A program made the position numbers and the translations under genes. Positions 1,869 to 9,186 of a stretch of 37,767 nucleotides of DNA are shown piece by piece. The notes beneath the pieces are model-generated. The model saw nothing but the letters and a program-made list of their open reading frames with translations, made no database searches and was not told where the DNA came from. Numbering within the stretch: the first letter of the stretch is position 1; each line of letters begins with the position of its first letter. The stretch comes from Hyphomicrobiales bacterium (lineage in GTDB: Bacteria > Pseudomonadota > Alphaproteobacteria > Rhizobiales > Beijerinckiaceae), in assembly GCA_025356415.1 (NCBI GenBank), contig JANXTB010000301.1, forward strand, positions 1 through 37,767, read 5' to 3'.

Positions 1869-2199
1869 GCATCGTCTCAAGGACTGATTTTGTTACGTCT
1901 TTTCGGCTGATATGCCCCCCTAACTCCGCATCCGACCCTTGAGCGACTTTGAGTAGGTCCGCTTACGATCAAACCAGCAAGATTGGCCACTCGGGGCCGG
2001 ACCTGACACACAACGTGGCGGGTCGCAATTCCTGGTCGCGAGGTCGAACCGCGCGATCTCATCGCAACTAACCTGATGTCGCGGTTGGACGAGAAGTCTT
2101 AGCAACAAGATTGAAGTGCACCGCTAGCAACCTAAGCTTGCGCCGCATACGGTGATGCTTCAAGCTGCACGGTAAGGGTGATCGTTTAGGATCGGTGTA

Positions 2200-3468
2200 G
2201 TGCCGGACGTTCTCAATGAGGGGCAACAAGCGACGATGGCAATCGCGATTAATGACGCTGCGCTGAACTTGCCGTCGCATGACCCTTATCGGAGGGTGAC
2301 AGACATACTACAGCGTCTCTCGCCTGGACGGATGCGGATCGCATTCCTGCTTGGAGCGGGTTGCCCTTTGTCCATTCGCGAAAACGGCGACGCGCTAATC
2401 CCGGACATCGCAGGCCTTACTCAGCTAGTGAAGGCGTCGTTGCTGGCCGTTGGTAACACCGCGGCCCTCACGACCGGGCTATGGGAGCGCTTCCAAGGCC
2501 GGGGAATCCATAAGCCCACGATCGAGGATCTGCTCAGCCATGCGCGGACCCTGTTATCGCTGTGCGGAGAGCCCGGCATCGACGGGTTCAGCAAAGCCCA
2601 GTTAAAAGCGTTCGACGAAGGAGCCTGTGCGACAGTTCGCTCGGCTGTCTCCAAACCCCTCCCTGCTGAAGGTACGCCCTACCACACTCTCGCAAGCTGG
2701 ATTCAGTCGATCTACCGAGAACATCCAGTCGAAATCTTCACCACCAACTACGACGAACTGATGGAGCAGGCGCTCGAAAACCGCGGTGTCCCCTATTTCG
2801 ACGGCTTCGTCGGAGCGGCCAGCGCTTTCCTGGATCTCGACTCTATGGTGGAGGATGATCTTCCTGCCCGTTGGGCGCGCCTTTGGAAGATGCACGGTTC
2901 GATCAACTGGTGGCTAACCAAGAACAATCAGGTGCGGCGCAGTCGGGACAAGATCGAAGGCGAGCAACTGCTAATTTACCCGTCTCACCTAAAATACGAC
3001 CAGAGCCGCCAGATGCCGTATCTCGCTATGCTGGACCGGCTGCGTGTCTTCCTGCGCGCACATCAAAGCGTGATCGTCACCTGCGGCTATTCTTTCGTCG
3101 ATGAGCACATCAACGCCTATCTGGCCCAGGGTCTCGCCGGAAATCCGAACGCCTCGTGTTTGGCGTTGATCTACGGCGATCTCGTCTCGGCCCCCGATGC
3201 GGTCAAGCTCGCACGCCGGCATGCAAATCTGACGGTTATGGCGGCCGACGGCGGTGTGATAGGCACGGTGGAACGGGCTTGGTGTTGCGACCATAAGGAC
3301 AACAACCCGGCCTACGAGATCGCCGTAACCCGAGACGCGCTTCCTCCGGAACGCTCCGCGTCTCCAGACGGACAGTGCAAATGGCTGCTGGGGGATTTCG
3401 CCGCCTTCGGGAAGCTGCTCGCCTCGCAGCTTTCCAACCGGGAAGCGGAGTCGGGGCTCGCTGAATGA
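2200..3468 (+). CDS. SIR2-domain protein (NADase-type) of a SIR2-HerA defense pair
   Basis: 422 aa from GTG 2200 (alternative ATG 2236). SIR2 motifs: FLLGAGCPLSI, IFTTNYDELMEQAL, KMHGSINWW, CGYSFVDEHIN. Stop overlaps the start of the HerA gene. Confidence 0.85.
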   Translation: MPDVLNEGQQATMAIAINDAALNLPSHDPYRRVTDILQRLSPGRMRIAFLLGAGCPLSIRENGDALIPDIAGLTQLVKASLLAVGNTAALTTGLWERFQGRGIHKPTIEDLLSHARTLLSLCGEPGIDGFSKAQLKAFDEGACATVRSAVSKPLPAEGTPYHTLASWIQSIYREHPVEIFTTNYDELMEQALENRGVPYFDGFVGAASAFLDLDSMVEDDLPARWARLWKMHGSINWWLTKNNQVRRSRDKIEGEQLLIYPSHLKYDQSRQMPYLAMLDRLRVFLRAHQSVIVTCGYSFVDEHINAYLAQGLAGNPNASCLALIYGDLVSAPDAVKLARRHANLTVMAADGGVIGTVERAWCCDHKDNNPAYEIAVTRDALPPERSASPDGQCKWLLGDFAAFGKLLASQLSNREAESGLAE

Positions 3469-5363
3469 AAGCCAGTTCAACCCTCATCGGATCTGTCCAA
3501 GACGTCTCAGGTACATCGATCAGTGTCGCCTTGGTCACGGATACAGTGACGGGGCTCAGTTTTCATAACGGCGAGGCCTACCGCATTGGTCAAGTCGGCA
3601 GTTTCGTGCGAATTCCGCTGGGGTACACGAGCCTCTTCGGCCTGGTGTCGCAAGTAGGGGCTGGCGCCGCGCCGGTGAGGGAGGGTGCACCCGCGCCCGA
3701 GAGCAATCAGTGGCTGAGGGTCCAGCTAGTCGGTGAGCGGGGGCGGGAAGGACGTTTCGAGCGCGGCGTCTCACAGCACCCAACGATAAACGATGCGGTT
3801 CACATCGTCACAGAGGCCGATCTTAGGGATATTTACGGCCCTGGCGATCCGATCGATTTCGTTCCCATCGGACACCTGGCCAGCGCGGATTCCATCCCAG
3901 CGCTGGTGAACATCAACAAGCTCATAACCCGGCACTCCGCCGTGGTGGGAACCACCGGGGCTGGAAAGTCGACGACGGTCGCCGCGATCTTGACGGCACT
4001 CTGCAACGTAAACGCCTATCCGTCATCACGTATTCTGCTGTTCGACGTCCATGGCGAGTATGGCCAGGCGCTTCAGTCCGTCTCGACCGTTCTGAGGATC
4101 GAGCCCTACCTCGACCGCGGCGAACTTCCGCTGAGGGTTCCTTATTGGGCTCTGAGCTTCGACGAACTGATCAGGCTAACGTTCGGATCGCTCGGCGACG
4201 ATCACAGGGCCTTCGTAGGCGATATGGTCGCGGACAGGAAACGGGCCACGTTCGACGCAAACCCGGTCCCAGGCCTCACAAGAGAGCGCATCAGCGCCGA
4301 TACCCCGATCTCGTTCTCGATTCATCAGCTCTGGTTCGACTTGCATTGCCGGGAGTATCAGACCGTCGTGCCTGACCCGGGCGGTTCGGCCGACGTCGTT
4401 CATCCGGCCTACGTGCTGGACCCAGCAGGCGCTCCCGTGCAACCCGGCGACGCAGAACAAGTCATTCCACCACTCTACAGAATGGTGAAGACGACCGGTC
4501 CAGCTGCGGAACGAGTTCAGTGGGGACCGGATCCGATCAACATTCGGAGGGAAGTGGGTATTCTAGGTTCGCGCCTCCGCGACCCTCAACTCCAGTTTCT
4601 TTTCAACCCTGATGAGTGGCGGCCAAACCTGGCCGGCGCGGCCCAGGCCGATCTCGACACCCTGTTGGATCGATGGCTCGGCAACACAAAGCCGCTCACA
4701 ATCTTGGACCTGTCGGGAGTCCCGTCCTCCATTCTGAACGACCTCGTGGGGGCAGTGCTGAGGATCGTCTATGATGCGCTTTTCTGGGCCAACAGCCTGC
4801 CTGAGGGCGGGAAGGAACGGCCTCTGCTCTGCGTACTGGAAGAAGCACACACTTATCTGAGCAAGGGGCGCGAAGGTCTGGCGTCAGAAACAGTGAAGCG
4901 CATCGCCAAGGAAGGCCGCAAATATGGCGTCGGCATGATGCTTGTCAGCCAGAGGCCCTCGGAGATTGACACCACTATTCTCTCACAGTGCGGGACCATA
5001 TTCGCCATGCGTCTGGCGAACGATGTCGACCGCAGCCAAGTGTCTGGCGCGGCGACCGACAATCTTAAAGGCCTCTTCGACATGTTACCGATCCTTCGAA
5101 CCGGCGAGGCGATCGTCGTTGGAGAAGCCGTCAGCCTGCCGATCCGGGCGATGATCGACTCGCTGTCGCGTGAGCGCCGCCCGAACAGCGCCGATCCCAC
5201 AGTGGTCGTTCGCGGCGACGCCCAAGGGGAGGGCTACGAACAGGAAGGCGGCTGGACCATCCCGCCCATCACCGAGAAATACGCCATTGTCCTGCGGCAG
5301 TGGCGATCGCAAACGAGCCGATACGTCTTCCTCGAGGGCGATGGGCCGACCGAGGAAGAGTGA
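3465..5363 (+). CDS. HerA/DUF87-type ATPase/translocase
   Basis: 632 aa; Walker A VVGTTGAGKSTTVAAIL, LLFDVHGEY, Walker B LLCVLEEAH, RKYGVGMMLVSQRPSEIDTTILSQCGTIFAMRL. ATGA overlap with the SIR2 gene. Confidence 0.9.
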   Translation: MKASSTLIGSVQDVSGTSISVALVTDTVTGLSFHNGEAYRIGQVGSFVRIPLGYTSLFGLVSQVGAGAAPVREGAPAPESNQWLRVQLVGERGREGRFERGVSQHPTINDAVHIVTEADLRDIYGPGDPIDFVPIGHLASADSIPALVNINKLITRHSAVVGTTGAGKSTTVAAILTALCNVNAYPSSRILLFDVHGEYGQALQSVSTVLRIEPYLDRGELPLRVPYWALSFDELIRLTFGSLGDDHRAFVGDMVADRKRATFDANPVPGLTRERISADTPISFSIHQLWFDLHCREYQTVVPDPGGSADVVHPAYVLDPAGAPVQPGDAEQVIPPLYRMVKTTGPAAERVQWGPDPINIRREVGILGSRLRDPQLQFLFNPDEWRPNLAGAAQADLDTLLDRWLGNTKPLTILDLSGVPSSILNDLVGAVLRIVYDALFWANSLPEGGKERPLLCVLEEAHTYLSKGREGLASETVKRIAKEGRKYGVGMMLVSQRPSEIDTTILSQCGTIFAMRLANDVDRSQVSGAATDNLKGLFDMLPILRTGEAIVVGEAVSLPIRAMIDSLSRERRPNSADPTVVVRGDAQGEGYEQEGGWTIPPITEKYAIVLRQWRSQTSRYVFLEGDGPTEEE

Positions 5364-5367
5364 CGCC

Positions 5368-5577
5368 ATGAACTGGATAGCCGTCGACAGCAGCACGATT
5401 TCGAGAATGGCCTACGACGACGCCCGCAAGGTGCTTTCGGTCGAGTTTAAGAACGGCTCGCGATACGAATACTATGATCTACCCACAAATGTTTTTCAGC
5501 AGATGAAGGCGGCGGCGTCAAAGGGCCAGTTCATTTCGGCGCATATCAAGGGCCGCTATCGTTACGCGCGCGTCTGA
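5368..5577 (+). CDS. KTSC-domain small protein
   Basis: 69 aa from ATG 5368, 4 nt after the HerA stop: MNWIAVDSSTISRMAYDDARKVLSVEFKNGSRYEYYDLPTNVFQQMKAAASKGQFISAHIKGRYRYARV. The ORF track extends it artificially upstream. Confidence 0.75.
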   Translation: MNWIAVDSSTISRMAYDDARKVLSVEFKNGSRYEYYDLPTNVFQQMKAAASKGQFISAHIKGRYRYARV

Positions 5578-5704
5578 CAAGCGCTTAGTCGCCACACACA
5601 CGTCGCGCTGGATGCAACACTGACCGACAGCCAAACGGTGGTCTGGGGAACCCGGCGCGAGCAGGCGGCCAGGTCCTGGCTCCGATTCGAAGGGGGCCCC
5701 CAAC

Positions 5705-6285
5705 GTGAACCAGATCCCGTCCTCCTAGCTCCGAAGTACCGTCCCCGAGCTGCGCTGGCGCACGGCGGGCTACTTCACCAGATGCCGTCGGGGTTCAACG
5801 ACTACACGCGCAACGGCTCGACCATGGAGGATCACCTCATCCAGCACACAGTGCGCAACGACGACATGACCAACCGAGGGATCCTGGAAGCCGTGGGCAT
5901 GCTCTCATGTTCACGTAGGCGCGTGTTCCGTTTCCTGCAGGAGATCACTAGCCCGGAAGCACAGTCCCCGCCTCGCCAGGCGGAGCTGGTCGAGAAGATC
6001 AACAAGGTCCTAGTCCACGACGGTTATCGCCTGATCGTCGCCGGGAAGATGTCAGGCAGTCTGATCTATGAGGTTCGAGAAGCTCTCAAGGGATCGCCTT
6101 CGGATGCAGCGATCTCCAACACACTGACGACCTTCGATCCGCATGACGTAGCCAAGCGCTGGCAAGAGGCCATGGAAAGCCGCGAGGCCTCTCCCGGTCG
6201 CGCCATCACCCTTGCGCGAACTCTGCTGGAGGATGTTTGCAAGTGGATCATCACGGAGGCAGCCCGGCGGGCTGCTATCTGGTAA
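5705..6285 (+). pseudogene. Degenerate abortive-infection-type (Abi C-terminal-like) protein
   Basis: Frame from GTG 5705 reads VNQIPSS*LRSTVPELRWRTAGYFT with an in-frame TAG at 5726. A one-base frame change near 5778 leads into MPSGFNDYTRNGSTMEDHLIQHTVRNDDMTNRGILEAVGMLSCSRRRVFRFLQEI...RAITLARTLLEDVCKWIITEA, then early termination (ARRAAIW*). Confidence 0.55.
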
Positions 6286-6348
6286 GCACCCTTGCGCCGC
6301 GGCGCTGGGGACCCAGCCGGTAATAGCGCTGCATATCAAGCGTCGGAG

Positions 6349-7071
6349 ATGACGGAAATGAAAGTCACGCCGGGTTGGGCGGCCGAGTTAGTCGGGGAGA
6401 AGATCGATCTCGATGATCTCCGGGCGCTTCTTGCGCCGCCGTTTGTCCCATGGGTCGAGGATTATAAAACCGAGCAAGGAGTTGCACTTCTTCTCCGATC
6501 ACCGGACTGGGGTCAACTGTCGGATGCGACGGCTGTCCGTCATGATGCGACCCGAATGGTGGAGAGGCTGAACGGGGCAGCCGCGTTGCTCCACACTGAT
6601 GCCGTGCCTGTTAGCCTAGGCCAGATCAGAAAATTTGGAATGGACGGGAATCCGGAACCGATTGTGGTTTCGGCGTCGGGACATGCGCAAGGGACATCGC
6701 GTGCGAGAGGTCGGGGGTCAGTGACCACCGGCAACTCAGGTCCGAGGCGCGAGACACTGATGCAGAAGTGGTTCCGAGAGGCAGACGCAGACGACTCGCG
6801 CGCAGACCTGCTGGCGTACGTATCGCGCGCGAACAATTGGTACGACCTTTTCAAAGCTGCGGAATGTGCTCGCCGACTGTCTGGTGGGAAGAATGGGCTG
6901 AAGGCGATACTAGGAACCGATTTTGGCGAGTGGGATAGGATTTGGCAAACCGCAAATTTTTACCGCCATGCGCCGGATCCTGTAAAATCTCGGCTCCCGC
7001 AACCACCAGCAGAATTCGACGTAGGCCGAGAGTTCATGCTCAGAGCCATCACTCGTGTCTTCAAATCTTGA
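6349..7071 (+). CDS. Hypothetical protein, no family recognised
   Basis: Uninterrupted ORF (listed from 6292; ATG 6349 more plausible): MTEMKVTPGWAAELVGEKIDLDDLRALLAPPFVPWVEDYKTEQGVALLLRSPDW... Confidence 0.6.
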   Translation: MTEMKVTPGWAAELVGEKIDLDDLRALLAPPFVPWVEDYKTEQGVALLLRSPDWGQLSDATAVRHDATRMVERLNGAAALLHTDAVPVSLGQIRKFGMDGNPEPIVVSASGHAQGTSRARGRGSVTTGNSGPRRETLMQKWFREADADDSRADLLAYVSRANNWYDLFKAAECARRLSGGKNGLKAILGTDFGEWDRIWQTANFYRHAPDPVKSRLPQPPAEFDVGREFMLRAITRVFKS

Positions 7072-7081
7072 TGGAGTGCTG

Positions 7082-7770
7082 ATGACCCAGACGCCGACGC
7101 TGACCCAGGTTCAGATCATTCAATCGCTCGCCGAGGCGCTCTCATGGATGGAGAAGGAGCTTTCATGGGGCGTTGCGCTAGGCGAGCTGAACCACCTGAC
7201 GGGGCGCATCGGAGAGCTATATGCTGCCATGATCACGCGCGGTCAGATGGCGCTGGCAACCAATCAGCAGGGCTATGATGTTGTTTCCGCTGCTAACGAA
7301 CGGATTTCGGTCAAATGCGTCACCAGCTCGGCGCAGGTGAACTTCAATCAGAATACGTTCCACCTGGTCGATCGCATTATCGTATTACGGATCGTCAATG
7401 AACGGGCCTTGCCGTCGAGGAGTTGCTCGATTGCCCAGCCGCGGAAGCTGAAGGCCGAATGCGGACCAGCGGCTCGAAAATTGTTTTCTCGACTTCTGCG
7501 TCAACACGCTCAGAAAAACCACTGGATCATTTGGCAGTGACCGCCCGTGCGGTGTTTCGGAATTGGGAGTTAAGGAAATACGAGAACGGCGCAATTCGGA
7601 TTTTCGTGGACGGGGTGCTTCAGAACGTAGTCGTGAAGGACGTGCTTCGAGTTATCGCCCCGGAACTCGGCGTTGCAATCACGAATGCTGCAGGCGAGGT
7701 GAAAACGACCCACCAGCTCGGGTCTGAGATCATCCGCGGTATAGAAGCCGCGTCGTCGTCGACCTCATAA
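7082..7770 (+). pseudogene. DUF6998-like protein split by a single-base frameshift
   Basis: ORF 7055..7540 gives MTQTPTLTQVQIIQSLAEALSWMEKELSWGVALGELNHLTGRIGELYAAMITRGQMA...VDRIIVLRIVNER. The natural continuation GLAVEELLDCPAAEAEGRM...KDVLRVIAPELGVAI is in the frame of ORF 7423..7770. Adding one G at 7404-7406 restores it. Confidence 0.65.
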
Positions 7771-7929
7771 TGCGCCCTTACATATCGATACCGAATGCTA
7801 TCGCGAATAAGATCGGACGCAGAAGCCCCGACCGGATCCGCTCGATCCGCACGCCTTGCGCGCTATAAAGCTGCTGAAGCCGCTCGTCCGCGAGCGGCGC
7901 CTCAGGCAAGTCCGAAAAGAGGGAACCCG

Positions 7930-8331
7930 ATGTCAGCATCGCCGCCGTCCCATGCAAGAGGCCTCCGCGAACCGGGCCCGGACCGTCCTATGGCCATTCA
8001 GCAAAACCCGCATCGCGTGATCGTCCGCGCCGACGGCCAGGTCGTTGCGGACAGCCGCTCCGCGCTCACCCTGACGGAGGCGGGCCACGGGGACGTCTTC
8101 TACATCCCGCGCGCCGATGTCGCGATGCAGCGGATCGTCCCCGTCGCCCGTTGGAGCTTCTGCCCCTACAAGGGCGACTGCTCCTATTTCGGACTGGCCC
8201 AGGCAGACACGGACGCCGCGCCGGTCGCGTGGTGCTATGAATCGCCCGGCACAAAGGCGGCGGCGCCGATCGCCGGTCACATCGCTTTTTATCGAGACCG
8301 CGTCGAGTCGATCGAGGAACTCGCCGGCTAA
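7930..8331 (+). CDS. DUF427-domain protein
   Basis: ORF 7795..8331, likely start ATG 7930: ...PHRVIVRADGQVVADSRSALTLTEAGHGDVFYIPRADVAMQRI...SFCPYKGDCSYFGL. Confidence 0.75.
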   Translation: MSASPPSHARGLREPGPDRPMAIQQNPHRVIVRADGQVVADSRSALTLTEAGHGDVFYIPRADVAMQRIVPVARWSFCPYKGDCSYFGLAQADTDAAPVAWCYESPGTKAAAPIAGHIAFYRDRVESIEELAG

Positions 8332-8352
8332 GGACGCGGCAACGGAGGCGCC

Positions 8353-8738
8353 ATGCACACGCTCATCAACCCCGGAGAACTCGCCCCGGCCGCCAGCTAC
8401 AGTCACGGCGTGCTCGTCAGCGGCGAGGCTCGCTGGCTGGCGATCGCCGGACAAGGGGCTGTGATTTGCAAGGCGACATCCCGGTCGGTATCGAGGCGCA
8501 AGCCGAGATCGCCTGGCGTAACATCAACAGCGTCCTGCGCAGCGCTGGCATGACGATGGCCGACCTGGTCGAGATCACGGTCTTCCTGATCCGGCGAGAG
8601 GACAATGCCGGCTTCGACGTGATGCGCAGCAAATGGCTCGCCGGCGCAAAACCCGCATCGACGAAACTCTACGTCGCCGGCCTCGCCGACCCGCGCATGC
8701 TCTGCGAAGTTCGGGCGATCGCGGCGAAAGCGGTATGA
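8353..8738 (+). pseudogene. RidA/YjgF-family protein interrupted by a frameshift
   Basis: MHTLINPGELAPAASYSHGVLVSGEARWLAIAGQ (frame of 8353..8553) continues as GCDLQGDIPVGIEAQAEIAWRNINSVLRSAGMTMADLVEITVFLIRRED... (frame of 8466..8738). Adding one G to GGGG at 8455-8458 restores the frame. Confidence 0.75.
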
Positions 8739-9096: not shown

Positions 9097-9186
9097 TGGC
9101 GGAGGGGGCGGGATTCGAACCCGCGATACGGTTTCCCGCATACACACTTTCCAGGCGTGCGCCTTCAGCCACTCGGCCACCCCTCC
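9097..9186 (-). tRNA. tRNA-Ser(GGA)
   Basis: Reverse strand GGAGGGGTGGCCGAGTGGCTGAAGGCGCACGCCTGGAAAGTGTGTATGCGGGAAACCGTATCGCGGGTTCGAATCCCGCCCCCTCCGCCA. Acceptor stem, long variable arm, T-arm and encoded CCA are all present. Confidence 0.95.

Follow-up and report, generated by a model that had tools for sequence, protein, structure and literature searches.

The SIR2-HerA complex contains 12 SIR2 and 6 HerA subunits, and in the Nezha homologue of V. cholerae immunity is abolished by mutation of the NADase site or by loss of HerA (PMC11559045). In DUF4297-HerA, an effector is likewise stacked on a HerA ring, a C-terminal hook of HerA strengthens this ring by docking into the next subunit, and a split spiral, idle as such, becomes a planar and active ring on assembly (PMC11291478); according to a review, a hook of that kind is not seen in SIR2-HerA (PMC12198126). 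KTSC proteins linked to HerA were noted briefly by Iyer et al. in 2022, who gave as unpublished observations neighbourhoods combining HerA and KTSC with an endoDNase in the place of the sirtuin (PMC9503650). Those neighbourhoods resemble the locus described here in coupling a KTSC gene with a HerA-like ATPase and differ from it in the replaced sirtuin; no HerA-KTSC-endoDNase locus was present among about 60 KTSC loci that we sampled. The closest solved relative of our locus is the SIR2-HerA pair of Paenibacillus sp. 453MF (PDB 8w9l for SIR2; 8wiv, 8wld, and 8wof for HerA and the complex), a system that was reportedly tested for NAD+ depletion by Garb and colleagues in 2022.

The window, that is, the whole stretch of 37,767 nucleotides analyzed here, contains intact ORFs for SIR2, HerA, and KTSC proteins in a single operon on the plus strand (Table 1). 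This arrangement had been described in a sequence-only reading and was confirmed: the end of the SIR2 gene and the start of the HerA gene share 4 nucleotides (ATGA), a spacer of 4 nucleotides separates the HerA stop codon from the KTSC start codon, and all three products match their families (SIR2_2, E 5e-18; HerA central domain, E 1.8e-31; KTSC, E 5.2e-20). The KTSC protein aligns with positions 1-58 of the 58 in the PF13619 profile at 71.4 bits (curated cut-off 25) and is a full-length member of that family. The SIR2 reading frame is open from GTG 2200 to its stop codon, but the conserved ATG 2236 is the likelier start, because an in-frame TAG sits just upstream of the equivalent ATG in L052, the nearest relative. 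A short way upstream of the KTSC ATG lies GAGGAAGAG, a candidate Shine-Dalgarno sequence that could plausibly serve this gene, and a promoter and terminator scan gave no signal above chance.

Table 1. Features of the SIR2-HerA-KTSC cassette in the window.
Feature	Position	Strand	Remarks
Whole cassette	2155..5579	+	blastn: conservation at the DNA level (86%) with Brevundimonas MAG locus L052
SIR2-family NADase gene	2236..3468	+	410 aa from ATG 2236; 422 aa if GTG 2200
HerA-family ATPase gene	3465..5363	+	632 aa; family matches and motifs
KTSC-domain gene	5368..5577	+	69 aa; split-off equivalent of the Paenibacillus HerA C-terminal domain

The SIR2 protein carries the motifs GAG, FTTNYD (N183, in the numbering of the 422-residue form), KMHGS (H232), and GYSF.DEH, and the NADase residues N183 and H232 of TTNYD and HGS are unchanged in 13 homologues. 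Walker A (GTTGAGKST) and Walker B (LLCVLEEAH) of HerA are both intact and conserved in the alignment. Strong PADLOC matches for SIR2 (1.5e-124) and HerA (4.7e-149) back the earlier identification as a SIR2-HerA antiphage module, and the copy in the window would presumably be active against phages; PADLOC returned nothing matching the window KTSC.

The label "Nezha-type", which the sequence-only reading had also applied, did not hold. The window shares the logic of SIR2 NADase plus HerA ATPase with the E. coli-type Nezha system (PDB 8j4u, 8su9), but its sequences are distant from that pair (38 bits for SIR2 and 101 bits for HerA), whereas the Paenibacillus pair gave the best match among solved structures (SIR2, 313 bits, E 2.4e-92; HerA, 638 bits, E 1.9e-190). 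Scores against the NCBIfam equivalogs are far below the cut-off (SIR2_antiphage, 50 of 500; HerA_antiphage, 161-219 of 800-850), and the two-gene architecture of Nezha-like loci, which lack KTSC, does not fit the window's clade, in which KTSC is present. DUF4297-HerA has a nuclease effector and a C-terminal hook peptide (PMC11291478) where the window has SIR2 and a KTSC domain; the window effector belongs to SIR2_2 and is no DUF4297 nuclease. In the Paenibacillus system the gene order is the same and a KTSC domain also follows HerA, with the difference that it is fused to HerA in a protein of 696 residues. The genes of this locus (L104) were identified with the solved proteins by agreement in length (381 residues for SIR2 and 696 for HerA) and with the printed SIR2 alignment. 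Judged by its SIR2 NADase residues, adjacent HerA with Walker A and B motifs, and KTSC as the next gene, the window would be assigned to the Paenibacillus 453MF type.

To learn how constant this linkage is, we scanned 84,980 species genomes with SIR2 as seed. This search yielded 80 loci, of which six were unreadable 3' of HerA (five because the contig ends there, and L053 because of N masking), and in all 74 readable loci a KTSC directly follows HerA, counting L091, which holds the first half of KTSC only, near a contig end. These loci cover about 20 phyla of Bacteria and Archaea, including Methanobacteriota and Promethearchaeota. On annotated plasmids, KTSC follows HerA in 12/12 cases in the order SIR2-HerA-KTSC; these relatives, with 29-44% SIR2 identity, come from alpha-, beta-, and gammaproteobacteria and the archaeon Natrinema. 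A SIR2-seeded scan of viral contigs found no match, and an independent HerA-seeded scan of such contigs found 13 clade-type loci, 12 of them readable and all 12 with KTSC. Outside the window's clade, Nezha-like loci included, KTSC was found in none of 40 SIR2-HerA loci (14 from Pseudomonadota genomes and 26 from viral contigs that extend 600 nucleotides or more downstream). Any KTSC at all was encoded in only 16 of 289 alphaproteobacterial genomes and 41 of 349 genomes in a phylum sample, and the window's own genome has one. Since KTSC is rare in alphaproteobacteria, yet all 74 relatives carry it 3' of HerA, the linkage is far beyond chance, and throughout this SIR2-HerA clade KTSC is a fixed component. 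The proposal that KTSC is a third component is thereby borne out, and the frequency at chance level within one lineage that would have spoken against it is contradicted.

The coupling is also tight. In the 93 loci with split genes, KTSC starts between -20 and +26 nucleotides relative to the end of HerA (the gap in L085 could not be placed), in agreement with the earlier suggestion of co-occurrence within 100 nucleotides, and KTSC is a separate gene in 93 of the 96 loci compared. All KTSCs adjoining HerA among roughly 60 sampled KTSC loci belong to the window's SIR2 type, and the neighbours of KTSCs not linked to HerA had no shared theme. All three genes are retained in 16/16 near-identical plasmids of enterobacteria and Aeromonas. 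Loss of KTSC in E. coli is uninformative as a natural genetic test, because the module occurs in only 1 of 5,426 E. coli genomes, and the Enterobacter type has no copies. In L063 (3601-7068), the HerA gene is in pieces with about 1.6 kb inserted, and SIR2 and KTSC are still there.

In a tree of 126 HerA sequences, the loci bearing KTSC form one clade (support 97), with one change on the tree; because several branches outside the clade are long, the deeper branching order is uncertain. The HerA proteins of L094 (Bacillus sp. 2B10) and L054 (Methanothrix) group with proteobacterial or other bacterial HerA, possibly by recent transfer or contamination. Divergence of KTSC correlates with that of HerA (r 0.80; partial 0.38 given SIR2) better than with that of SIR2 (partial 0.16), a modest advantage. 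Identity to L052 at the DNA level starts about 80 nucleotides upstream of the likely SIR2 start, ends 2 nucleotides past the KTSC stop codon, and is absent outside the cassette. Against L052, dN/dS is about 0.05 for SIR2, 0.03 for HerA, and 0.09 for KTSC, which indicates purifying selection on each of them. Native fusions of HerA and KTSC are found in Paenibacillus 453MF, Mucilaginibacter, Pedobacter, and a viral contig (loci L104, L112, L119, and L245), with at least two origins. The three junctions examined look like the tail of a split HerA to which KTSC was attached, and the linker methionines in L104, L112, and L119 make it look as if the stop codon between coupled genes was lost. KTSC is also found in many other contexts, with ABC transporter, DUF72, or TPR neighbours, as would be expected of a gene merely carried along without a role in the system; against such a neighbour stand the co-occurrence over about 20 phyla, the tight coupling, the native fusions, the purifying selection, and cassette edges that take in KTSC and nothing further, which together rule out chance and leave this explanation next to no probability.

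A small gene that overlaps or abuts its partner and whose loss is not seen where SIR2-HerA is intact is also what one usually expects of a toxin-antitoxin regulator, and KTSC might then be an antitoxin-like inhibitor that holds the NADase off before infection. We consider this improbable. KTSC is the last gene and not the first, Nezha-like systems are controlled without it, and in several lineages it is part of the HerA chain, so that it cannot be separately degraded or diluted.

Downstream of the cassette and outside it, an ORF at 5638-6285 encodes a protein with the AbiJ N-terminal domain 3 (E 2.9e-24) that stops after 215 residues and looks like a truncated abortive-infection gene. It is followed at 6292-7770 by an unassigned ORF, a DUF6998 ORF, and a further overlapping ORF, and this AbiJ remnant and the ORFs resemble a small defence-island stretch. 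A tRNA-Ser (gga) gene on the minus strand at 9097-9186, about 3.5 kb beyond the cassette, is a possible island edge. Genes for ADP-ribosylglycohydrolases lie near SIR2-HerA-KTSC in L031 (Natrinema zhouii plasmid, 7593-8570) and in L003 (Paracoccus plasmid, 544-1569).

The AlphaFold model of the window KTSC (pLDDT 94.9) superposes on the stand-alone KTSC crystal structures 7x8c (Methanolobus vulcani) and 4rgi (YPO2434) with TM-scores of 0.91-0.94, and on the resolved HerA C-terminal domain of 8wld, 8wof, 8wiv, and 8wj3 with TM-scores of 0.84-0.89 (best chains). The KTSC profile matches residues 629-696 of the 696 residues of Paenibacillus sp. 453MF HerA (E 2.6e-26). Because of this profile match and the superposition of the model on the resolved domain, the 69-residue KTSC protein is the split-off form of a HerA C-terminal domain, and it is better described in this way than as the independent regulator or trigger that the sequence-only reading had considered. 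The abstract of a 2024 paper by Liao and colleagues is said to attribute the stability of the HerA split spiral to a unique C-terminal extension; this extension would be the KTSC domain. The stand-alone KTSCs share the fold of the window KTSC and are not known as partners of HerA. The two kinds are separable by sequence: HerA-linked KTSCs favour N10, an aromatic residue at position 36, L56, and K61, unlike unlinked ones, and their mean net charge is -1.2, compared to +1.8 for the unlinked group.

Phages, and jumbo phages above all, commonly encode KTSC proteins (records H78-H107), some of them annotated as structural or DnaJ-like, and the BFVD lists the KTSC fold for small structural proteins and for a phage portal protein. 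A KTSC of phage origin could act as a mimic or competitor of that of the system, and KTSC has been called DNA-binding in HerA neighbourhoods by Iyer and Aravind (PMC9503650), while others suggested RNA binding (PMC8541194). KTSC could thus be a phage sensor that binds nucleic acid or protein derived from the phage and relays the signal to HerA-SIR2, and the basic character of the window's own KTSC (net charge +5) would suit such a role. The HerA-linked group is, however, slightly acidic. Being non-basic on average, its members seem better suited to protein docking than to nucleic-acid binding, and this average would speak against a general nucleic-acid-binding role, the basic window copy notwithstanding. 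KTSC is also conserved (dN/dS of about 0.09 in the comparison with L052) and not fast-evolving like many phage-recognition parts, and its fusion to HerA points to a subunit that is constitutively present, although this is compatible with a sensor domain. We regard a phage sensor as rather unlikely.

Our analysis shows one operon in which KTSC is constantly linked to HerA, native fusions of the two, joint inheritance, and a KTSC fold that is also resolved in solved SIR2/HerA complexes. KTSC occupies the chain position of the DUF4297-HerA hook, so the best inference for its role is a subunit that staples or gates the ring; by this analogy, KTSC most likely binds to the HerA ring and either stabilises it or acts as its gate. 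We favour, as probable, that the three products form one antiphage complex with KTSC as a small ring-stapling or gating subunit of HerA. SIR2 would be a NADase of stacked rings, and HerA a DNA-translocase ring of six subunits, docking on SIR2 and activating it. KTSC would be supplied to HerA from its own coupled gene in most members and as a fused C-terminus in a few, with about one copy for each HerA protomer, seated on the ring's C-terminal face, where its contacts would staple adjacent protomers and decide between an open, idle and a closed, active ring. Infection, probably through phage DNA or DNA ends engaging HerA, would switch the complex on and lead to NAD+ depletion. Several points count against this reading: the basic window KTSC may contact nucleic acid, the lead of HerA over SIR2 in the divergence correlations is modest, and, because Nezha-like systems function without KTSC, HerA rings have no general need of it. 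A bolder extension, in which KTSC is a ring-gating module common to defence HerA rings and phage proteins, with phage KTSCs as decoys or counter-defence competing for the docking site on HerA, seems to us a long shot.

In the literature searched, which covered a minority of the structural papers on the system, we found no discussion of KTSC with SIR2-HerA as a three-part system, and neither the PADLOC nor the NCBIfam models that we searched include the third gene. Defence-system models count SIR2-HerA as two genes, while one large and widespread clade has a constant third part; with a clade-defining and usually separate third gene, the "two-gene" system is really three-part in the window's lineage. 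The laboratory model of this clade, from Paenibacillus, conceals the third part as a fused domain, and heterologous tests of split-type members with SIR2 and HerA alone would omit a HerA domain. The KTSC domain (PF13619), in turn, gains its first concrete place, as a subunit of a solved antiphage complex.
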